Assembly: GCA_947484175.1 (NCBI GenBank) | Contig: CANKOI010000001.1 | Span: 83,752-147,751 of the forward strand | Source: Deltaproteobacteria bacterium | GTDB taxonomy: Bacteria > Myxococcota_A > UBA796 > SXON01 | Direction: 5' to 3' | Length of the DNA stretch: 64,000 nucleotides | Shown: in pieces, positions 5,274 to 61,088 of the stretch | How the letters are laid out: each line of letters opens with the position of its first letter | How positions within the stretch are numbered: the stretch's first letter is position 1 | Translations under genes and position numbers: made by a program | Notes under the pieces: model-generated | The model's input: the letters and a program-made list of their open reading frames with translations, nothing else | What the model was told of the DNA's origin: nothing | The model's database searches: none

Positions 5274-7505
5274 ATGCTTCTCTCCCTCGTTCTCTGGTCC
5301 TGCGCCAACAAGCCGATCGACACCGAGGTGCCGGCTGTTTCTCTCGACGCCCGCACCGGCACGATGGTGCCGGAGGCCGCGACGGCCGAGCCCGCGCGCC
5401 CCGCCGTTCGGATGCCCGAAGGGGAGCCCATCAGCCGGGAGTGCTACGCCGACTCCCGAAAGAAGGCGCGCAGCGCCCCTGCCGCAAGCGTTCCCACTGC
5501 AAGCGCCCCTGTCGCGGGTGGCGGGGCCAAGGGCAACCGCGGGGACAGCGGCTACGGGTCGACCAGCGGGAGCGGTGGCGTGGCCGCGGGCCCCTCGCCG
5601 TCGCCGTCGCCGAAGCTGAAGGTGGTGGAGCGCGAAGCCGCTGCCGTACCCACCGAGCCGACCGTGGCCGCTGCGTCGCCTCCTCCGGCGCCACCCCGCG
5701 CCGAACCCGCACCGGAACCCGCAAAATGGAGCCCGGTCGCAGACGGAGCGGACCGAGCGAACGACGAGCTCACGTCGGCCCGCCCTACCAAGCCGCTGGC
5801 CGCCGCCGAATCCACCCCTTTCGGCAAGGCCGAGGAGCAGAAGGCCGACAAGGATGACACGCTCCCCGATGCCGATCTCGAGCGGTCGATGGCCACCGGG
5901 ACCGAAAAACGGCCGCTCGGCAACAAGGTTGCCCAGGAGGCCGCCCGCTTCGACTGGGGCGGCACCACCTACCTGAGCAACGACGACTCGATGTCGCTGG
6001 CATCGGCACAACGCCTCCTCTGGGCGGTGCAGCAGCGCGGCCCGGTGAAGGCCAGCGAGGTGCGCCCCCACGAGCTGCTCAACTACTTCAGCTTCGACAC
6101 TTCCCCGGTGCCCTCCGGCGACACGTTCGGCGTGAACGCCGTGGCCGAACAGACCGATGAGCACACTCTGTCACTGGCCCTCGCCATCAAGGGGATGACG
6201 CCCGAACGGAAGCCGCTCGATCTCACGCTCGTGCTCGACCGCTCCGGTTCGATGTCGGCCGAAGGGCGCATGGAGTACCTCAAGCGCGGCCTGCGCCAGA
6301 TGTCGGGCCAGCTTGAGCGCGGCGATCGGGTGGACGTGGTGCTCTTTGATGGCGACGACTGCACGCCGCTGGAGAACTTCGTCGTGGGCCGCGACGACCC
6401 CGCGCTGCTCAGCGACGTGATCAACAATCTGCAGCCCCGCGGCAGCACCGACCTCAACGACGGGCTGCGAGAGGGCTACCGGGTGGCAAAGACCCACGCC
6501 GACGTGGAGGGCCGCAACCGGCGCATGGTGCTCATCAGCGACGCGCTGTTGAACACCGGCGAGGTGAACCCCGACATCGTGTCGGAGATCGGGCGCTCCT
6601 ACGAAGAGTCGGGGATCCGCCTCTCCGCGGTGGGCGTGGGGCGGGACTTCAACGACAAGGTGCTCGACCAGCTCAGCGAGAAGGGCAAAGGTGCCTACGT
6701 GTACCTCGGCAGCGAGGCGGTCGTGGACCGCGTGTTCGGCGCCGGCTTCCGCTCGCTCACCCAAACGGTCGCTCACGACGTTCACTTCAGCCTTCACCTG
6801 CCCCCTTCCCTCGCGATGGAGAAATTCTACGGCGAAGAATCGAGCACCGTGAAGTCCGACGTGCAACCCATCCACTACTACGCGGACACCACCCAACTCT
6901 TCGTGCAGGACCTCCGCATGAACGGCAGCCGCCCCGTCCGCAGCGACGTGGTCCGTCTCACGGCCGAGTGGACGGATGTGGACACCGGTGTTGCTCGGGA
7001 GCAGTCCTTTTCCGCCACGGTTGGTGACCTCGTGGACGGGGACGCTCGAAATCTCCACAAGGGACGCGCGCTGCTCGCGTGGACAGACATGATCCTCGCA
7101 CGCAGTCTTGGGAATGACCCGTGCGGAGCGCCATTCACGGCGTGGACCGAGCGCGTGGACACGTTGGGGGAGGACGCGGAAGTTGCGTGGCTCGACAGCC
7201 TCACCGCTCCGCTCTGCGGCGCGCGTCCCACCGTCCCCAAATCGGTCGCGACGGTTTCGGGTGTTCCGTACAAGGTGAGGGTGGACGCCGACCAGGTGAT
7301 CGCCGAGGTGGAGCTGCGCTGCGGAGCCGAGTCGCGGAGCGAGGCGCTCCGCGTGGGCAGCAACGTGGCGGTGTTCGACGTGCGCCCTGGGAGCTGCGAA
7401 GTGGTGCTCCAAGGCAACGTGCCTATGGTGGCAAGTGTGCAGGTGCCGAGCGTCGGCGGCGACGTCCGCTGCCTCGTTCGGGGGGGGCGCATCCGCTGCG
7501 GATAG
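5274..7505 (+). CDS. von Willebrand factor type A domain lipoprotein (YfbK-like)
   Basis: Lipobox-like LVLWSCANK; MIDAS DxSxS in LTLVLDRSGSMSAEGRMEYLKRGLRQM; YfbK-like N-domain RPHELLNYFSFD. Confidence 0.85.
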   Translation: MLLSLVLWSCANKPIDTEVPAVSLDARTGTMVPEAATAEPARPAVRMPEGEPISRECYADSRKKARSAPAASVPTASAPVAGGGAKGNRGDSGYGSTSGSGGVAAGPSPSPSPKLKVVEREAAAVPTEPTVAAASPPPAPPRAEPAPEPAKWSPVADGADRANDELTSARPTKPLAAAESTPFGKAEEQKADKDDTLPDADLERSMATGTEKRPLGNKVAQEAARFDWGGTTYLSNDDSMSLASAQRLLWAVQQRGPVKASEVRPHELLNYFSFDTSPVPSGDTFGVNAVAEQTDEHTLSLALAIKGMTPERKPLDLTLVLDRSGSMSAEGRMEYLKRGLRQMSGQLERGDRVDVVLFDGDDCTPLENFVVGRDDPALLSDVINNLQPRGSTDLNDGLREGYRVAKTHADVEGRNRRMVLISDALLNTGEVNPDIVSEIGRSYEESGIRLSAVGVGRDFNDKVLDQLSEKGKGAYVYLGSEAVVDRVFGAGFRSLTQTVAHDVHFSLHLPPSLAMEKFYGEESSTVKSDVQPIHYYADTTQLFVQDLRMNGSRPVRSDVVRLTAEWTDVDTGVAREQSFSATVGDLVDGDARNLHKGRALLAWTDMILARSLGNDPCGAPFTAWTERVDTLGEDAEVAWLDSLTAPLCGARPTVPKSVATVSGVPYKVRVDADQVIAEVELRCGAESRSEALRVGSNVAVFDVRPGSCEVVLQGNVPMVASVQVPSVGGDVRCLVRGGRIRCG

Positions 7506-7509
7506 GCGG

Positions 7510-8241
<732 letters not shown>

Positions 8242-51636: not shown

Positions 51637-54600
51637 TCACGGGGTCCACGTGACGCCCAGCCCCACGGACCAGCCGTTGCGGGTTTCTTCGCTGATTTCG
51701 TTCCCCACCTGCTGCCGAACGGGCCAGTCGAGAAGGTTCGTTCCCTTCAGGCGGGCGGAGAAGTTCTTGCCGATCCCCTGCGTGTAGACGAGGTCGAGCT
51801 GGTGTACGGGCAGCTCGTAGGTATCGGGGATCCCCGAGGTTCCTACGTCTACGATGCGCGGGCCGAACACGTTGTAGAGCAGCGACACGTTGGTTCGCAG
51901 GTCCGGGTTCTCGTAGCTGACCGTGAGGTTTAGCACCCAAGGGGACTGGCCCTGCAGGGGGCGCTCCTCGGAGGTCTGGTTGCCCTCGGTGGCGCTGAGG
52001 TCGACCGTGGAGACGATCGCGGCAACGTTGCCGCTCAGGTACAGGTCACTGAGGGTTTCGTGCACCACGTCGAGGCGCTGGCGTGCGTCGACTTCCACCC
52101 CATAGTTGGTGGCGCTGGCGGCGTTCGCGAACGTGCCGACGCTCCCGGACACCGCGCTTACCGCCACGACGGACTCGATCGGATGGTCGAAATACTTGAA
52201 GAAGACGCCAGCCGAGACGCTCTCCCCCTCCCTCGGATACCACTCCCACCGCACGTCGGCGTGGTCGATGGTCGCCCGCCGCAAGTCGGGGTTGCCGTAG
52301 AGGGTGCGCCCGGAGCGGTAGTCGTAGTACTGCACCTCCGTGAGCTCTCGGAATTCGGGTCGGGAAAGCGTGCGGCCATACGCCGTGCGCACCAACATCG
52401 CGTTCGGTTTTTTCTGGGATCCGATGTCCACGGTGACCGTGGCAGAGGGGAGCCAGTCGGTGCTGCCCAGTTCGGCAAGGACGGGCTCCTTGGAGGTGTC
52501 GAACTGCTGGAAGGTGGTCACCGTCTGAACCGAGCGTTCCACGCGCACCCCACCGAGCGCCCGCACCCGCGGCAGGAGCCCGGTGTCGACCATGGCGTAC
52601 GCGGCGTAGGTCTCCTGACCGGCGGTGTAGTCGTCGGAGTTGATGGTGTTCTCCTCGAACTGCAAGAATCCGGGGTCGCCCTCCTCGGCTTCGCCGATGT
52701 TCTCTGGCACGATTAGCGACTCGATGGGCGCGGTGAGATCGAGCCCTTCGGTGCCCTTGAACGAGTAGCCGAAGCGTCGGGTGCCGGCGGTGCGAGTGCG
52801 GGATGCCCGCTGCCCGCCGAACTTCAGGCGCGTGTCGAGTCCGAGTTTTGGGAGCGGCACGGTCAGGTCGGCCGCACCGTCCTGGGTGTGGTCGTCGAGG
52901 GTCAGGTATTGGATGTCGCTCCACCCGCCCCGCTGCGAAAGCACGTAGTGCCCATCCTCGGTCTGGCTGTAGGTCCACTCGCGGCGATCGGGCTCGTCTC
53001 GGGTGGCCAGAGCAACGGAGTACCTTGCCTCCAGGAGCACCACGCCGATGTCTGCGCGGGCCGCCAGTTGTTCGAAAATCAGCTGCTGCTCCACCCACGA
53101 CGAACGCTGCGAACGGGTGTCCCCGGCGCCGGTGGGGTCGTCGGCTTCGTACGTGAGCCCCGTAGCGGTGCTGCTCCGGTTCACCAGTGTCGTGGAGGTG
53201 AGCGAATAGTCGTCGTCCCACGCCATCCCGAGAGACATCGCGCCGCCGACGCGGACGCGGTTCTGGGCCTCCACAAACGAGGTCTGGCGGCTCACCACCA
53301 AGCCATCGCCGCTGTTCGCGAACACCGACCGCCAGCCTTCGTCGATGTCCCAGCCGTTGCCGTATAGCAGACCCAGGAGGCCGCCGAGCGAGAGTCGCCC
53401 GAAGCGGAGGCTGCCGCCCCCGTTGAGGGTGGCGCCGAAGTCGGGAGGCACCTCGCGGGGGCTCAGCCCCCACCGGTTGTCGATCGACTCGCCGAGAGTC
53501 GCCAGATCCTCGGCAGTGTACCCCCCTTCGGTGAAGATGCCGGCCGGTTTGATCGCGGCGTTGGCGCTGGCGTCGGCCACCGCGGCAGGTAGCGCGCGGA
53601 ACTCCTGCCCCAGCCCCAGCCAGTCCGTCGGCCCCTCCGGGCCGAGGTTCGCCGTCTGCAACGACGTTCCGGACACCCAAGCGCCGGACAGGCCGAGGTT
53701 GAAGATGGGCTTCTCTGGGATGGCGCGCGTCCTCACCTCCACGATGCCGCCGCCCCACTCCGCGGGCCGGTCGGGCGAAACCGTTTTTTGGATCACCACG
53801 GCTTCAATGAGCGACGTGGGAAACAGGTCGAGCGGCACCACCCGCTTCTCCGGCTCCGGACTGGGCAGGGAGGAGCCGTTCAGCAACGTGGCGCTGTACC
53901 GATCGCCGAGCCCGCGGACGTAGACATATTTCCCGCCAATGACGGTCAGGCCTGTGACTCGTTTTAGCGCGCTCCCCGCATCGCTGTCTCCCGCTTTGCT
54001 CATCTGCTCCGCCCCGAGCACATCGCTGACGGTGGAGGCCTCGCGCCGCTCGTCGAGGGCCAGCGCGGTCCCGCCCACGATCCGCGGCGCTGACACGGTG
54101 AGGTCGGGCAGTTCGAGTCCTGATGTTTCCAACTCCACGTTGAGGGGACTGTCGGTGTCGGCGACGATGGCGACGGTCAGCGCACGTGTTCGGTACCCCG
54201 GCCGAAGGACGGAGATATCCCACGTGCCTTCGGGTAAGTTCAGCTCGAAGTTACCCCGGTTGTCACTCATGGCGGCGGCGGTGGTGCCGCGCACAAAAAT
54301 CCGGACGTCGGCGATCGGAGCCCCGGAGGCTGGATCGATCACGCGCCCCTGAACGGTGCCGTGCGGGCCGTTCGGGGCCACCGCTCCCGCCCTACTCCCG
54401 TTTGGGAGTTCCAGCGCCACCTGCGGAGGCCGGCTGAGGGTAACGAGCAACTCGGTGGTCGCTCCGGGACGAACGTCCACGGCTGGGATCGTGGTGGCAT
54501 CGGTTGAGCCAATGACGGCGTCGAATTTTCCCTCAGGCACGTCGAGGGCGAACGCCCCACGTGCGTCGGTCTTCGTGGTGGCGTCGCCAACGCGCACCGT

Positions 54601-54708
54601 CACGGAGGAAACGGGTCGGCCCGCTTCGTCAAATACCATCCCGCACACGGTGCCGAGCTCCGCGGCCCTGACGAATGCTGCGGACGCGAGGATGAGAAGA
54701 ACCGTCAC
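51637..54708 (-). CDS. TonB-dependent receptor with two N-terminal carboxypeptidase-regulatory-like domains
   Basis: GTG start at 54708 (GTGA overlap); plug-like EQMSKAGDSDAGSALKRVTGLTVIGGKYVYVRGLGDRYSATLLNGSSLPSPEPEKRVVPLDLFP. Confidence 0.92.
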   Translation of the reverse strand: MTVLLILASAAFVRAAELGTVCGMVFDEAGRPVSSVTVRVGDATTKTDARGAFALDVPEGKFDAVIGSTDATTIPAVDVRPGATTELLVTLSRPPQVALELPNGSRAGAVAPNGPHGTVQGRVIDPASGAPIADVRIFVRGTTAAAMSDNRGNFELNLPEGTWDISVLRPGYRTRALTVAIVADTDSPLNVELETSGLELPDLTVSAPRIVGGTALALDERREASTVSDVLGAEQMSKAGDSDAGSALKRVTGLTVIGGKYVYVRGLGDRYSATLLNGSSLPSPEPEKRVVPLDLFPTSLIEAVVIQKTVSPDRPAEWGGGIVEVRTRAIPEKPIFNLGLSGAWVSGTSLQTANLGPEGPTDWLGLGQEFRALPAAVADASANAAIKPAGIFTEGGYTAEDLATLGESIDNRWGLSPREVPPDFGATLNGGGSLRFGRLSLGGLLGLLYGNGWDIDEGWRSVFANSGDGLVVSRQTSFVEAQNRVRVGGAMSLGMAWDDDYSLTSTTLVNRSSTATGLTYEADDPTGAGDTRSQRSSWVEQQLIFEQLAARADIGVVLLEARYSVALATRDEPDRREWTYSQTEDGHYVLSQRGGWSDIQYLTLDDHTQDGAADLTVPLPKLGLDTRLKFGGQRASRTRTAGTRRFGYSFKGTEGLDLTAPIESLIVPENIGEAEEGDPGFLQFEENTINSDDYTAGQETYAAYAMVDTGLLPRVRALGGVRVERSVQTVTTFQQFDTSKEPVLAELGSTDWLPSATVTVDIGSQKKPNAMLVRTAYGRTLSRPEFRELTEVQYYDYRSGRTLYGNPDLRRATIDHADVRWEWYPREGESVSAGVFFKYFDHPIESVVAVSAVSGSVGTFANAASATNYGVEVDARQRLDVVHETLSDLYLSGNVAAIVSTVDLSATEGNQTSEERPLQGQSPWVLNLTVSYENPDLRTNVSLLYNVFGPRIVDVGTSGIPDTYELPVHQLDLVYTQGIGKNFSARLKGTNLLDWPVRQQVGNEISEETRNGWSVGLGVTWTP

Positions 54709-55880
54709 GGGCAGCCTGCTTCCGCGCAGGCAGCCATCGCCTCGCGAAGGTCGGTGGCACGGCGGAAGGCCTCCGGCTCGGTGATGTCGCGCAACCACCG
54801 CTCGGCCGTGGAGAGGTCGCCGAGACGGAACGCGGCGTAGGCGAGACCGTAGGCTACTCCGCTGTCGGTGCCGAGCCCCAGTCGCAGCAGACGCTCGTCG
54901 AGGGCCATCGCTCGCTCCCACTCTTCCGCATCGAGCAGCAGCCCGAGCCGCTGGCGGGCCTTCGCCACCGGGTCGAGTACCCGGCCGTTGGCGCGCAGCG
55001 CAGCGTCGTGCTCGCCCGCCCGGCGGTAGGCTTCCGCCGCTTCGAGGGAGAGGGCCGGGTCGATGGCCGCCGCACGCTCGAGGAAGCGGCCGGCCGCACG
55101 GGGGAGGCCGTCGTCGAGCGCGGCGCGGGCCGCCTGCACCAGCAGGTCGCGATCCTCGCCTTCACGGAGGCATGCGGCCTCGAGGAGGGTCATGGCCTCA
55201 CGCGTTTCTCCTCCCTGCCGCAGGGCCTCGGCGATGGCTACCGCGTCGTCCGCGTCTGCGTCTGGCCGGGCGAGCAGGCGCTCACCCAACTCTCTGGCCT
55301 CACGGAACAGCCCCAACCGTACCAGCAAGAACACCTGCCGTCGCCCCGCCTCGCCCTGCTCGGGGAACCGCTGCGCCCCTTCTCGCAGCGCCGACCAGGC
55401 CTCATCGGGCGAGCCGCGGGCCTCTTCCGCCTGCGCGCGCAGAAGCCACGTTCCCGGAAGGGCGGCGCCCACCTCTCCGGCCGCGTCGAGGGCGGCAACC
55501 GCGTCTTCGGGGTGGTTGTTCATGAGGCAGGCGCGAGCCAGATGCAGGTGCAACAGGCCACGGCCGTCGGCTCGGCCATCGGCCGTGATGGCGAGGGCGT
55601 GCGCGAACGCCGCCTCGGCCTCTGCGCCCCGTTTGTCGTGCAGTTCCACCAGACCGATCAGCGTGTACAGGCGAACCTGATCGAGACCCCGCGCCTCCGG
55701 GTTGACCGCCTCGAGCTCGACCCTCGCGCGTATCCACTCACCCTCCCGCACCAGTAGCCCCGCGTCCTCCAGTTTCTGCACCTGCGCCTCGTCGCGTTTC
55801 GACTTCGCCGCGGCCGCGGTTCCGAAGCCGCCGAGCGCGAGAACCAGAATTAGGGCGCGCAGTGCGCTGCGCTTTCTCAC
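54705..55880 (-). CDS. Tetratricopeptide-repeat protein
   Basis: GTG start at 55880 (GTGA overlap); TPR-like helical repeats. Confidence 0.8.
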   Translation of the reverse strand: MRKRSALRALILVLALGGFGTAAAAKSKRDEAQVQKLEDAGLLVREGEWIRARVELEAVNPEARGLDQVRLYTLIGLVELHDKRGAEAEAAFAHALAITADGRADGRGLLHLHLARACLMNNHPEDAVAALDAAGEVGAALPGTWLLRAQAEEARGSPDEAWSALREGAQRFPEQGEAGRRQVFLLVRLGLFREARELGERLLARPDADADDAVAIAEALRQGGETREAMTLLEAACLREGEDRDLLVQAARAALDDGLPRAAGRFLERAAAIDPALSLEAAEAYRRAGEHDAALRANGRVLDPVAKARQRLGLLLDAEEWERAMALDERLLRLGLGTDSGVAYGLAYAAFRLGDLSTAERWLRDITEPEAFRRATDLREAMAACAEAGCP

Positions 55881-56497
55881 TGCAAATCGAAGCGGAGGGT
55901 CTGCCGCACGCGCACGGCCACCGGCGCTCCCTCCTGTTGGCCGGGGTTGAACCGCCACGTCCTCACCGCGTCGGTCACGGCGTCGTCGAACACCCCCGGC
56001 GCGGATGCTTCGATGACCAAGACGTCCTGCGTGGAACCGTCGACATCCACGACGAAGCTCACGGTCACGGATCCAGATTGCCCGAGCGCCCGCGCCCGTG
56101 CCGGGAAGGCGGGCGGCGAACGGTCGATGGGGAGGGGGGGGGCCTGTACGTCGGCTTCGTCCACCACCGCCCCGCCTAGGTCGCCCATGAGTTGCCGGGT
56201 GGCATCTGCCATCGCCAGGTCGGCCCCGTCGCTAAAGCCGAAGTTCAGGCCTGAGAGCCCTGCCGCGAGCATTGGCGACGGGGAGGGCGCCGACTTGCGC
56301 GACCGTTGGGGTGCCGGAGCTCGGTGCCGGGAACGTGCGGGCGGGTTGGCCGATCGAGCGACGGGCGCGATCTCTGCCACCACGCTTACCGGCTCCGTGG
56401 CCGCACGTTGAACCACGCTGTTCATGCCGAGGCTAAGGCCGACGACCCCCACCATCCCGGCCACCCCGATGAGGAACGCAATGAGGAGGCGTTCCAT
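55877..56497 (-). CDS. Energy transducer TonB
   Basis: N-terminal TM, Pro-rich linker, C-terminal PPAFPARARALGQSGSVTVSFVVDVDGSTQDVLVIEASAPGVFDDAVTDAVRTWRFNPG. Confidence 0.9.
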   Translation of the reverse strand: MERLLIAFLIGVAGMVGVVGLSLGMNSVVQRAATEPVSVVAEIAPVARSANPPARSRHRAPAPQRSRKSAPSPSPMLAAGLSGLNFGFSDGADLAMADATRQLMGDLGGAVVDEADVQAPPLPIDRSPPAFPARARALGQSGSVTVSFVVDVDGSTQDVLVIEASAPGVFDDAVTDAVRTWRFNPGQQEGAPVAVRVRQTLRFDLQ

Positions 56498-56901
56498 CAG
56501 CCGGCCTCGGTCTCGGTCATCACGCCGATGTTCTTGGCGCCTGCTAGGCGGCACTGGTCCACCACCTCAACCAGCTTCTCCGCCGGGACACGACGGTCGG
56601 TCACCACCAGCACCGTCTTGTCGGCCACGCCGCCAAGGGCGTCGCGCACGCGGCTCTGGATCATCCAGAACCGAACAGGCGTTTCGTCGATGTAGACGTT
56701 CAGTGACCGGTCGATGAACACCCGCAGGGCCTTGTCGCTCGCGGGCGTCGCGCTTTGGGCACCCGGCCGTTCGATCTCCAGAGAAGCATCTTTGGCGAAG
56801 GTGGTGGTGACCATGAAGAAAATGAGCAGCACCAGAATGCAGTCGATCAGCGGCACCACATCAATGTGGGGGTCGCGATGTTCCTCGACGTGCCTCCTCA
56901 T
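56497..56901 (-). CDS. ExbD/TolR-family biopolymer transporter
   Basis: HIDVVPLIDCILVLLIFFMVTTTF; ATGA junctions on both sides. Confidence 0.92.
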   Translation of the reverse strand: MRRHVEEHRDPHIDVVPLIDCILVLLIFFMVTTTFAKDASLEIERPGAQSATPASDKALRVFIDRSLNVYIDETPVRFWMIQSRVRDALGGVADKTVLVVTDRRVPAEKLVEVVDQCRLAGAKNIGVMTETEAG

Positions 56902-57503
56902 CGCTCGCCCTGGGCCGCGCCCGCGAAGAGGGCCTTGAGCGAGGCGAGATCGCGGCGGATCCGTGCTTGCCGCTGGTGCAGCGCGCCGCCCGCCAACAGG
57001 CCGGGCACGGCGATCGCGAGGCCCATCTGGGTGGCGTAGAGCGCCTCCACGATGCCCCCCGCGATGCCTTCGGAGGCGGCAGAGGCCGACGACGCACCGA
57101 GGGAACCGAAGGTCTCGATGAGCCCGAGCACGGTTCCGAGGAGCCCCATCAGCGGAGCCATGGCGACAAGGCAGCCCACCACGCGGGCGCCCGCGCCGAG
57201 CTGTGCTTCCAGATCGGCGAACGCTTCGTGGAGCAGGGCCTCGGGAACGGAGCCTCCCCGCTCGCGCCACAGCTTCCCTCCGCGAGCGGCCGCGACGGTC
57301 ACCAGTCCCTCGGGCGGAAGCGGGTCACCGTTTCGCCCCAGACGCGCCAACTCGCGAACGGGGCGACGGTCGCCGCGCCGGAGCGTGAGCCAACGCAGAC
57401 CGATCGCGAACCACAGCGAGAACGCCGTGAGAAAGAGGGCGGGCATGACCAACCCGCCTTCGCTCAGAAAATCCCCCGCCTGGAGCCACACCCCGCCGAT
57501 CAA
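56898..57503 (-). CDS. MotA/TolQ/ExbB proton channel protein
   Basis: GCLVAMAPLMGLLGTVLGLIETFGSLG; EALYATQMGLAIAVPGLL. Confidence 0.92.
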   Translation of the reverse strand: MIGGVWLQAGDFLSEGGLVMPALFLTAFSLWFAIGLRWLTLRRGDRRPVRELARLGRNGDPLPPEGLVTVAAARGGKLWRERGGSVPEALLHEAFADLEAQLGAGARVVGCLVAMAPLMGLLGTVLGLIETFGSLGASSASAASEGIAGGIVEALYATQMGLAIAVPGLLAGGALHQRQARIRRDLASLKALFAGAAQGER

Positions 57504-58798
57504 GACGCGTCCCGGCGGGCCGCTTGCACGGCGTTCTGGAGCGAGAGCGCGGCGCGGTCGATCGAGTTCTTGACGCCGTCACCGACCGTGGCCAGCACGT
57601 TGCCGGCGAGGAGGGTGGGGATCGCGACGGCGAGGCCGAACGCGGTGCAGATCAGCGCCTCCGCGATGCCAGCCGACATCAGCTTCGGATTGCCGGTCCC
57701 ATGCTCCGTGATCACGTTGAAGGTGGCGATCATGCCGGTCACGGTGCCGAGAAGGCCGAGGAGCGGGGCCCCCGCGGTGATGACCGTGAGCGCCGAGGCG
57801 AAGCGATCGATTCCGGGTGTTTCCTTGAGAATCGCCTCGTCCACCACGCGCTCCAGCTCGGCGGGGGGGCGGGCTGCGGAGCGCACGATGGCCCGCAGCA
57901 CGCGCGCGAGCGGTCCGCCGCGCCCGTGCAGCACCGTTTCGGCGCCGCCGAGCTGCCCTGCTCGTACCTGGGCCGCGACCGCGTCCACCAACGTGTGCCC
58001 CCCCCGCCGCGCAAAGGCCAGTCCGACAGCTCGGAAAATGGCGAGCGTCGCGCTCACGACCCCGAGCGCGAACAGGAGTTGTCCCATGCTGCCGGATTCT
58101 CGGAGCAGGGCCGGGAGCCCCCCTGCTTTCTCGGTCTCGGCGGTGCCGCGCTCGGGCTCGAACACGTGAACCTCCCAGCGGGGGGGCACCGCGGAGACCA
58201 GCTCGGCGGCGGTGGCCGCGCCGAAGCTGGCTCGGAGCTGGAGGCGACCTTCACCGGCGGGGACCAGCGAGCCGGCGGCCCCTGTGGCGAGTCCCCACGC
58301 CCCCACCTGCCCGAGCCGGAACACCTTGCCGCGGGCTTCCTCGCCGGTGGGAAGGAAGAAAGACGCGTCGCGCCACCCCACCGCATTCTGGTCCGTCAGC
58401 TGCGCCGCCAAAAGGCGGAACGTTTCGGCGATCGCGACTGCAGGATCGCTGGAGGGAGTCACAGCGAGGGTGTCGCTCGCTTGTGAGAGCGTGGTCTCCA
58501 GGATGGCGTGGGCGTCGGCAGCGGCGCTTGACTCGCGCTCGAGGGCATCGAACTCGTCTTCGGCGAGGTCGGCCCGGCGGGAGGTCGCCACGAGCGTTGC
58601 CTGAAGGGAGTCGAGCTCCGCCTCGGCCTTCGCCACGCGGTGTTTGGCGTCCCGTTCCAACTCGGCGGCGCGCTCCACCAGTTCGGTGCGCTCCGCGGCG
58701 AGGTAGGCGTGTTCCTTCTGATAGGCTGCTTCGAGGCTCCCGGCGGGGGCGGGGTCTGCCGCGAGCCCGAAGGCTGCGAGGAAAAGGGGGCCCATCAA
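57500..58798 (-). CDS. TtpC-like protein: coiled-coil periplasmic region fused to ExbB domain
   Basis: Long N-terminal helical region, then ITAGAPLLGLLGTVTGMIATFNVI and AEALICTAFGLAVAIPTLL. Confidence 0.87.
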   Translation of the reverse strand: MMGPLFLAAFGLAADPAPAGSLEAAYQKEHAYLAAERTELVERAAELERDAKHRVAKAEAELDSLQATLVATSRRADLAEDEFDALERESSAAADAHAILETTLSQASDTLAVTPSSDPAVAIAETFRLLAAQLTDQNAVGWRDASFFLPTGEEARGKVFRLGQVGAWGLATGAAGSLVPAGEGRLQLRASFGAATAAELVSAVPPRWEVHVFEPERGTAETEKAGGLPALLRESGSMGQLLFALGVVSATLAIFRAVGLAFARRGGHTLVDAVAAQVRAGQLGGAETVLHGRGGPLARVLRAIVRSAARPPAELERVVDEAILKETPGIDRFASALTVITAGAPLLGLLGTVTGMIATFNVITEHGTGNPKLMSAGIAEALICTAFGLAVAIPTLLAGNVLATVGDGVKNSIDRAALSLQNAVQAARRDAS

Positions 58799-59544
58799 CT
58801 TCCTGTGGGGCGCGGGCTGGGGAGCACGAAGTCCCCTGAACGCACGCCGTGTTTGAATTTCTCAAAAAGTGTTTCCAGTGCCCTCGCGTCTTCCCGGTCG
58901 GGGAGCGCCTCCCAGACCCAGCCCGTAGGTGAGGGTCTCGCCACTCCGGCGAGCCCGGCGTCGGTATGGCAGTACAGGGCAGCCATACCGAGCCGGGCGA
59001 TGTCAGCCAGAACGTCGGCCCCCCCGATGCTCACGACCTGTCGGTCGAGCCCGTTTTCGCGAGCGAGACGGAGCTCGTCCTCGCCGAACGCCCAGAGTCG
59101 GGCGGTGGCGGCTTCGGCCCCCACATCGCCCGCATCGAGCTGCGCGTCGAGTTTGTCGAGCTCCTGAAGCCTCTCCGTGCGGTGGTAGGGCAAGCCCTCG
59201 GACACGTACTGTCGGAGCGTGTCGACTGCCGTTTTCACGGCGGGTCCGAGGGTGGTGCCGCGCGTGGTGCTTTCGGCCACGGCGGCACGTCGACTCACGG
59301 CCTCCCCTTCCACCTGCGCGAGCCGCAGGTCTTCACGCCGGAGTTGCACCTGCACTTCGGCCTTCTGCCCTTCGATCGCCTTCAGGCGGGCGCGCAGCTC
59401 GTCCTTCGTCAGCGAGAGCTCGCTGGAGAGGGTTTCGACCTCACGTCGGAGTCTGGCCAGCTCCGCGGCGCGCGAGTCGCCGTGGTCGTCGGCCTTCGCA
59501 GCGGGGCTCGCCACGAGGAGGAAGTGCAGGAGGGGAAGCAGCAT
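58795..59544 (-). CDS. DUF3450-like periplasmic coiled-coil protein
   Basis: Signal peptide, coiled-coil; position next to TtpC as in TonB2-type clusters. Confidence 0.75.
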   Translation of the reverse strand: MLLPLLHFLLVASPAAKADDHGDSRAAELARLRREVETLSSELSLTKDELRARLKAIEGQKAEVQVQLRREDLRLAQVEGEAVSRRAAVAESTTRGTTLGPAVKTAVDTLRQYVSEGLPYHRTERLQELDKLDAQLDAGDVGAEAATARLWAFGEDELRLARENGLDRQVVSIGGADVLADIARLGMAALYCHTDAGLAGVARPSPTGWVWEALPDREDARALETLFEKFKHGVRSGDFVLPSPRPTGS

Positions 59545-59547
59545 GGC

Positions 59548-60897
59548 TCAGTCGGCGTCGTGACGTGTCCAGCCCGCCGTCCAATCGGTCGTCCCGTCGA
59601 ACGCACCGATGTAGGAGACCTGCTCGAAGAAGCTGTCGCTGGGGGTGACACCGCCGCTGGCGAGCGACGAGCCGGCCGCGAGGCGGAAGTCCGGCGCGGT
59701 GGTGTTCCATGCGTCCTTCAGCTTCAGATCGGTCAGCACGCTGTTGGCTCCCCACACCGCCTCTTCGGTGCCGGCGTCGGCGTCGTCTCCAGTTTCGAAG
59801 GGGTCCTCGCACGCGAGCGCGCTGCCCCACACGCCCGCGTCTCCGCTCGAGAACGCTGCGTAGGTGGCTTCGTCGCGCACGCTGAGGCAGGCCGTCGAGA
59901 ATCCGTCGACCGCGAGGCCGTACGCCATCGGGCTGAAGCCCCGGCGCCACAGCATGCCGAAGTTGGACTCGGCCACGTCGGGGTCACCGATCAGGGTGAC
60001 GTTGGCGATGGTGGGCGTGGTGCCCGGCTCGGCTGTGTGAACGTCGGGGTTGTTGTCGGCCTCGATGCCGTTGTTGCCGCCTCCACCCCACTGCTGCACC
60101 ACGGCGAACTGGATCTTGCCCCGGTAGCCGAGGTCGAAGTCGATGCCGTCGTCGCCGGGCGAGGTGCAGACCAAGTGCTTGGCTGTGGCGGCGCCGCCCC
60201 AGAACTCGACGCAGTCATCGAGGGTCTGGTGCACCTGCACGTAGTCCATTTCGGTGCCGCTTCCGACGGCCTGGAGGGAGATTCCGTTCACCTCGTTGTC
60301 GGGACTCACTTCGGTGCCCACGAACTCCACCACGACGTACTTGAGCACTCCCGAGGAGTCGGCCCAGTCTGTACCGCCGTACGTGCCGGTGTTGCCTTCA
60401 CCTTCGGCCTCGCACGGCGTGGTGCCGTCGGTGCATGCGTTGATTGGGGCTCGTCCGTTGAGGACCAGGCCGCCCCAATCTCCTCGCGCCCGCGACCCGA
60501 CGGCCTGATCGCTCGTGAAGACAATCGGGTCGGCGGCGGTGCCGTGTGCCCAGATCTGCGAGCCGCGTCGGACGATCAGAACGGCGTCGGTGGCCGCCTC
60601 GCCGTACACCGTGGTGCCGGGTTCGATCTCGAGGATGGTCTCGTTCGTGTCGTCTCCGATGAGCACGCCGGAGCGCAGGAGCCACGCCTTGTCGGCCGTG
60701 AGTCTCATGCTCTGCGTGTACGCTCCGGTGAGCACGCAGGCGCCGTTCTCGTCGACACACTCGGCTGCGGGAATGTCGGAGCCGGAGCCTGTGTCGGTTT
60801 CCACGTCCGTGTCCGTGTCGGTTTCCGTGTCGGCGTCCTCGCCGGTGCAAGCGGCGAGCAGCAGGGGAAATAGGATCGAGTGGAGCGAGGGTCGCAT
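59548..60897 (-). CDS. Putative surface lipoprotein, beta-helix-like
   Basis: LLLAACTGEDADTETDTDTD lipobox and linker; VRRGSQIWAHGTAADPIVFTSDQ, GDWGGLVLNGRAPIN; 3 bp upstream of the DUF3450 gene. Confidence 0.8.
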   Translation of the reverse strand: MRPSLHSILFPLLLAACTGEDADTETDTDTDVETDTGSGSDIPAAECVDENGACVLTGAYTQSMRLTADKAWLLRSGVLIGDDTNETILEIEPGTTVYGEAATDAVLIVRRGSQIWAHGTAADPIVFTSDQAVGSRARGDWGGLVLNGRAPINACTDGTTPCEAEGEGNTGTYGGTDWADSSGVLKYVVVEFVGTEVSPDNEVNGISLQAVGSGTEMDYVQVHQTLDDCVEFWGGAATAKHLVCTSPGDDGIDFDLGYRGKIQFAVVQQWGGGGNNGIEADNNPDVHTAEPGTTPTIANVTLIGDPDVAESNFGMLWRRGFSPMAYGLAVDGFSTACLSVRDEATYAAFSSGDAGVWGSALACEDPFETGDDADAGTEEAVWGANSVLTDLKLKDAWNTTAPDFRLAAGSSLASGGVTPSDSFFEQVSYIGAFDGTTDWTAGWTRHDAD

Positions 60898-61088
60898 GTG
60901 GAGTTCCGGTCGCTCGGGGAAGCACAGAAGGCTGTGGTCCGAGGCGCGCCGAACTTACGTGCGGCTGGTGCCGGGCTCGCGCCTGATGCGTGAATGCTTC
61001 GGATCGGCTGCGCCCGCCTTTGCGCAACTTGTGTGACTGTTTCGTGTCGCACGGCCCCCGCCGGTCTCGCTAGGCCCACGAAAGCGCC

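Follow-up and report, generated by a model that had tools for sequence, protein, structure and literature searches.

A probable phosphate-starvation uptake operon that joins an ElpS-like beta-helix lipoprotein and its TonB-dependent receptor to a TonB2-type motor

The TonB machinery closest to the one considered here has been described in Vibrio. In V. vulnificus, ttpB2 and ttpC2 open the TonB2 operon, exbB2, exbD2 and tonB2 lie within it, and ttpD2, which encodes a tetratricopeptide repeat (TPR) protein, closes it; all six products, TtpB2 and TtpD2 included, are essential for TonB2-dependent siderophore uptake (PMC6957404). The Vibrio TonB3 operon is similar, has a receptor gene first and is inactive in iron transport (PMC6957404), while according to the cited passages of another report peuA, the gene of an enterobactin receptor, shares one operon with TonB2 genes (PMC4141801). 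Here we analyze a TonB operon of this type in a 64,000-nucleotide stretch of contig CANKOI010000001.1 (the window), which belongs to a deltaproteobacterial genome of the Myxococcota_A lineage, a 4.37 Mb draft in 167 contigs. In this operon, the motor genes are flanked by components for the cell surface, namely, a putative surface lipoprotein (LP) at the beginning and a TonB-dependent receptor at the end. We conclude that the operon probably represents a machine under PhoB-type control, in which the capture of phosphorus compounds is followed by their import through the outer membrane, driven by its own TonB motor.

Inspection of the sequence confirmed the gene order given in an earlier note on this DNA, with all eight open reading frames on the minus strand; the Pfam families agree with it and the order is conserved in relatives from the same order. 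The features of the locus, from the upstream repeat to a ninth gene beyond the receptor, are as follows:

61033..61048, minus strand: Pho-box-like direct repeat, GACAC and GTCAC separated by GAAACA, 9/10 match to GTCAY-N6-GTCAY
59548..60897, minus strand: LP, lipoprotein with signal peptide, lipobox LLAAC, acidic D/T-rich linker and modelled right-handed beta-helix; ElpS-like
58795..59544, minus strand: TtpB-like (DUF3450) secreted coiled-coil protein; PF11932, E 8.7e-24
57500..58798, minus strand: TtpC-like protein, N-terminal extension plus ExbB/MotA channel domain; PF01618, E 7e-27, residues 296-406
56898..57503, minus strand: ExbB, TTG start; PF01618, E 1.1e-21
56497..56901, minus strand: ExbD; PF02472, E 3.2e-26
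55877..56497, minus strand: TonB; PF03544 (TonB_C), E 1.4e-20
54705..55880, minus strand: TtpD-like TPR protein, GTG start; TPR_14, E 8.9e-12, and other TPR models
about 51637-54708, minus strand: TonB-dependent receptor, GTG start, 1023 aa; PF13620 in two stretches, PF07715, PF00593
50867..51556, minus strand: PhoB/OmpR-type regulator with degenerate receiver; Trans_reg_C, E 6.2e-12; PhoB profile, 128 bits

The genes are tightly packed. LP and ttpB are separated by a 3-nt gap, after which all junctions overlap by 1-4 nt, as had been noticed before, although not exclusively through ATGA and GTGA: two junctions are of the TTG type, ttpB/ttpC (TTGATG, 1 or 4 nt, the TtpC-like protein starting with TTG at 58798 or ATG at 58795) and ttpC/exbB (TTGA, 4 nt), and exbD/tonB is TGATG (1 nt), whereas exbB/exbD is indeed ATGA (4 nt) and both tonB/TPR and TPR/receptor are GTGA (4 nt each). 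A scan for sigma-70 promoters and terminators was uninformative. The assignment of the gene at 58795-59544 to DUF3450 holds, at 84.6 bits against a Pfam cut-off of 32.6, and so does that of the gene at 57500-58798 to TtpC: its product has an ExbB domain behind a long N-terminal extension, and residues 35-409 align with the TtpC-type protein encoded at the corresponding place in a Pseudoalteromonas cluster (28% identity, 411 columns; no Vibrio TtpC was compared). With a Plug domain, a barrel domain and two CarboxypepD_reg stretches in Pfam, the last gene of the operon qualifies as a TonB-dependent receptor. There are 9 Plug-domain and 12 ExbD-domain matches in the genome against a single DUF3450 match, and thus the receptor with its own motor is one unit among several.

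The six energizer genes are the same as in Vibrio TonB2, and their order, ttpB-ttpC-exbB-exbD-tonB-ttpD, matches that of V. vulnificus (PMC6957404), which bears out the likeness drawn in the earlier note; TtpC is in both cases an ExbB-type protein extended at its N terminus. Unlike in Vibrio TonB2, LP comes first and the receptor last within one overlapping operon, and whereas a Fur site is reported for the former, the window has a Pho box and a neighbourhood that is not iron-linked (no Fur-box scan was made). TonB3 and peuA-TonB2 likewise combine a TtpC-type TonB system with a receptor gene of its own, so that both this type of energizer and a receptor wired to it are already known. In the cited passages on these two systems, however, no surface lipoprotein is mentioned, PeuA is an enterobactin receptor and TonB3 responds to Lrp/CRP. 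TonB3 was considered as a phosphate system; given the Lrp/CRP control cited there, no such claim is made.

For the lipoprotein, the closest described counterpart is ElpS (cc0170) of Caulobacter crescentus, a palmitoylated lipoprotein that is exposed on the surface and produced during phosphate starvation, and whose gene adjoins the TonB-dependent receptor gene cc0171 and genes of the type II secretion system (PMC2996285). Its overproduction raises extracellular phosphatase activity, ElpS apparently being no phosphatase itself, and the protein arrives at the surface without the type II system, by a route yet unknown (PMC2996285). Moreover, the PhoB regulon of Caulobacter includes TonB-dependent receptors (PMC11208175). 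Alphaproteobacterial LP loci, for example in Indioceanicola and several Caulobacterales genomes, share the layout of elpS, receptor and type II secretion genes (type II secretion genes come after the LP-receptor pair in L083, L088, L090, L094, L099, L101, L192, L196 and L201-L206). The LP of Caulobacterales locus L197, which has an adjacent receptor and no gsp match in the stretch, is 37% identical to the window LP and contains LAGC and an Asn 18 residues after the Cys (counted by eye), as described for ElpS. On the basis of the shared layout and the homology with Caulobacterales LPs, we take the window LP to be ElpS-like. The window and elpS loci are alike in having a lipoprotein gene beside a TonB-dependent receptor gene, and they differ in that the window receptor has its own TtpB/TtpC-type TonB complex and no adjacent type II secretion system.

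The linkage is conserved well beyond the window. Gene calls in the compared loci derive from open frames and from profiles built on the studied loci. DUF3450 matches are present in 26 out of 58 genomes of the order, 21 of them over the cut-off, and 18 of the 20 loci around strong matches have LP-ttpB-ttpC-exbB-exbD-tonB-TPR-receptor either complete or interrupted only at contig ends; such conservation among same-order relatives implies that the gene order is not due to chance. The remaining two loci, L009 and L010, come from one genus and keep LP-ttpB-ttpC but not the rest, which is clear for L009, as L010 ends soon after. In L009 a gene for a serine-hydrolase/beta-lactamase-like lipoprotein (5935-7692) follows ttpC in place of exbB. 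LPs of the order are 41-86% identical to the window LP; within the phylum, 210 out of 380 genomes encode LP relatives, which also occur in many other phyla. The LP-receptor pair occurs in loci labelled Myxococcota, Poribacteria, Latescibacteria, Planctomycetota and Acidobacteria, and likewise in gammaproteobacterial, alphaproteobacterial, Bdellovibrionota-type and Bacteroidota loci, with the energizer located between the two genes, after them, before them or absent. The most frequent layouts are LP-receptor (39), receptor-LP (32), LP-ttpB-ttpC-...-receptor (28) and an exbB-type set followed by receptor-LP (13); in rarer ones the cassette precedes or follows the LP-receptor pair. Overall, a receptor is present in 100 of the 124 distinct LP loci, many of those lacking it ending at a contig edge, and in none of 40 random 20-kb loci. 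Hence the conserved core consists of LP and the receptor, whereas the energizer has been moved or replaced in distant relatives.

The evolutionary distances point in the same direction. LP and receptor distances are correlated over 122 loci (r 0.79; null maximum 0.08). In the 33 loci used for partial correlations, the receptor distances track both LP and TtpC; the correlation between LP and the receptor given TtpC is 0.34, and that between LP and TtpC given the receptor is 0.02. This pattern would fit a receptor that contacts LP on the outside and the motor on the inside, shared ancestry also contributing. The partnership of LP and the receptor is thus well supported. Two side observations concern the same pair. 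In a metagenome bin titled Klebsiella pneumoniae, probably mislabelled, the receptor-adjacent LP (L033, CAMBIK010000084.1) is 53% identical to the window LP. In addition, a frame of ~200 aa without a Pfam match lies by the receptor-LP pair in L085 (8013-8615) and 13 other loci from Acidobacteria and Poribacteria; it may be spurious.

The connection to phosphate comes from neighbouring genes and from promoters. PhoB adjoins LP in 44 out of 124 loci and in 1 out of 40 random loci (p 7e-6), both PhoB and PhoR are near LP in 23 loci, and PstS, the phosphate-binding protein, is also among the neighbours. An annotated plasmid of Alteromonas macleodii has the order phoB-phoR-PstS-2OG oxygenase-LP-receptor-DUF3450-ExbB-ExbB-ExbD-TonB-TPR, LP being annotated as 'hypothetical protein', and in order-mate L015 the operon and a pst-phoU-phoR-phoB set are oriented divergently. 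Our initial high-GC Pho pattern was derived in part from the same sequences, so we relied on a test of the half-site GTCAY at all spacings from 1 to 15 on the coding strand together with random control regions. Known Pho boxes have an 11-bp phase. The spacing that corresponds to this phase, 6, was the only one enriched, being found in 20 of 38 Myxococcota loci and in 17 of 36 loci outside Myxococcota (0-7 loci for other spacings in either set), and GTCAY-N6-GTCAY was present in 12 of 320 control regions. In the window, GACACGAAACAGTCAC is located at 61048-61033, 136 bp upstream of the LP ATG; it agrees poorly with the E. coli-type consensus (11/18) and matches in the looser GTCAY-N6-GTCAY phase test. 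E. coli-type Pho boxes (16/18) precede several LP loci. Regulation by phosphate is therefore well supported, with control of this operon by a PhoB-type regulator in vivo being its likely form. It is this evidence that makes uptake of iron-siderophores or another metal, with incidental Pho neighbours, less likely. Such a role would be in line with the closest characterized TtpB-TtpC-TtpD system, which serves siderophore uptake (PMC6957404). However, Pho boxes and PhoB/PhoR/Pst neighbours recur in several phyla (Fur boxes were not scanned), the ElpS literature concerns phosphate starvation, and even in Vibrio the TonB3 system with its own receptor gene is inactive in iron transport. We regard iron uptake as quite improbable.

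What LP might do at the cell surface can be approached from its structure. The AlphaFold2 model is strand-rich, with a mean pLDDT of 92.7, and LP is confidently modelled as a right-handed beta-helix. A fold search with the model returned tailspikes, pectate lyase Pel9A and other polysaccharide-acting proteins as nearest neighbours, a generic beta-helix resemblance only, none of the PDB matches being significant (best E 1.8e-3, none at E 0.001 or below; TM at most about 0.46). Searches with the LP sequence in Pfam, NCBIfam, PHROGs and PDB returned nothing, and 70 family members gave one weak Pfam Beta_helix match and no match to NCBIfam, Pfam CAZyme families or SusD. LP was consequently rejected as a known beta-helix carbohydrate-active enzyme, neither family nor fold matches pointing to one. 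The pair resembles SusCD in combining a receptor with a putative surface lipoprotein, but LP is a beta-helix and has no Pfam match to the SusD family. Uptake of glycans or other organic carbon, with LP as a beta-helix carbohydrate-active protein working with a TonB-Xanth-Caul-type receptor, would suit the fold and its best neighbours as well as the match of the window receptor to TIGR01782, which is below the cut-off. Against this stand the insignificant fold matches, the lack of CAZyme matches, the Pho boxes upstream of LP and the neighbourhoods, in which no carbohydrate-active gene was recognized among recurrent genes (neighbours were not systematically annotated). In light of the Pho evidence, this function too is less likely, and we rate its chances as low.

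Residues of LP that are invariant across phyla include D227, D228, E231, D249, D250, D253, E279, D281 and R318; judging from their spacing, the acidic ones fall on successive turns and may line a groove for metal-assisted binding. The LP domain is repeated two or three times in alteromonad and many alphaproteobacterial members, and L059, L071, L086, L092 and L193 are such cases from Alteromonadales and other Proteobacteria. The window LP and most relatives have a signal peptide and a lipobox, and LP is presumably exposed on the surface in this organism as well; in some lineages there is a plain secretion signal and no clear lipobox.

The latter proteins bring up the opposite direction of transport. 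In Myxococcus, Oar and ExbB/ExbD/TonB are required for secretion of PopC (PMC6434023), and LP could similarly be cargo that the receptor moves outward with the help of its own TtpB/TtpC-type TonB complex, LP then acting on phosphorus outside the cell. This would amount to TonB-powered export of a phosphate-starvation surface beta-helix protein over many phyla. Plain secretion signals, the persistence of the LP-receptor partnership with or without the TtpB/C cassette, the type II-independent surface route of ElpS (PMC2996285) and the CarboxypepD_reg domains of the window receptor are all in keeping with export. Oar is likewise a receptor with a carboxypeptidase-regulatory-like domain wired to Ton genes, and a tonB-exbB-exbD-exbD-receptor-LP layout resembling its Ton genes occurs at LP loci of distant Myxococcota. 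On the other hand, TonB-dependent receptors otherwise import, the Ton set beside M. xanthus Oar is of another kind (two exbD, one exbB and tonB, without TtpB/TtpC), and deletion of cc0171 did not stop production of ElpS (its surface location in the mutant was not reported). We therefore consider export unlikely. The cargo of Oar is PopC, and no LP is described in the cited passages. Distant Myxococcota loci L121-L140 combine the LP-receptor pair with ordinary exbB and two exbD, recalling the Oar Ton set.

The ninth gene, 80 bp past the receptor on the same strand, encodes a PhoB-type regulator, and a similar layout at a similar distance is found in L023 from the same genus. The earlier note, whose view of a dedicated TonB2-like machine with its own receptor and lipoprotein is supported by the conserved linkage, left this gene out and missed the phosphate link and ElpS. 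In other order-mates, a PhoB adjoins the operon, often with PhoR, and retains the acidic pocket of the receiver together with the phospho-acceptor Asp and the conserved Thr and Lys; in an alignment, the receiver of the window regulator lacks all of them.

Several points weigh against import under phosphate control. Judging from its residues, the window regulator cannot be a normal PhoB, since the phospho-acceptor site is missing, and it may act without phosphorylation. For most LP loci no Pho gene lies nearby, the criterion used picks out a Pho box in only about half of the tested LP promoters, and pst/phoU neighbours (13 out of 124 loci vs 1 out of 40, p 0.10) are not significantly enriched, the control being small; moreover, this p-value and that for PhoB are optimistic because the loci are related and not independent. 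LP appears to belong to the ElpS family, but cc0170 was compared by description and layout, not by sequence. In Caulobacter itself, deletion of elpS left alkaline phosphatase activity unchanged, cc0171 was reported to be constitutive and no change in intracellular phosphate was seen (PMC2996285). Regarding Pst components, genome G000 has two tandem PstB-like ATPases (contig C18, 36343-37835; 297 and 282 bits) that both miss the curated PstB cut-off, and no PstB that passes it.

Collectively, the data are best explained by a phosphate-starvation uptake machine. At low phosphate, a PhoB-type regulator would act at the Pho box upstream of LP, and LP, a surface-anchored beta-helix of the ElpS kind, would be displayed beside the receptor. 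There it may capture a phosphorus-containing compound, or hold or help an enzyme that processes the compound, which the receptor would then import, powered by the private TtpB/TtpC/ExbB/ExbD/TonB/TtpD complex. A literature search found no description of LP, receptor and TtpB/C as a phosphate system. Little is understood of how scarce or bulky phosphorus compounds pass the outer membrane, and the 2010 paper in which ElpS was named did not settle what the protein does. Our analysis brings together an unclassified family of beta-helix proteins, a family of receptors and the six-part TonB motor known from iron uptake within one operon linked to phosphate starvation, gives this surface protein a role that can be tested, the operon type being present in cultivable Alteromonas, and provides a candidate function for a protein mostly called hypothetical by genome pipelines. 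If the proposed function is correct, the TtpB/TtpC/TtpD motor would extend beyond iron.

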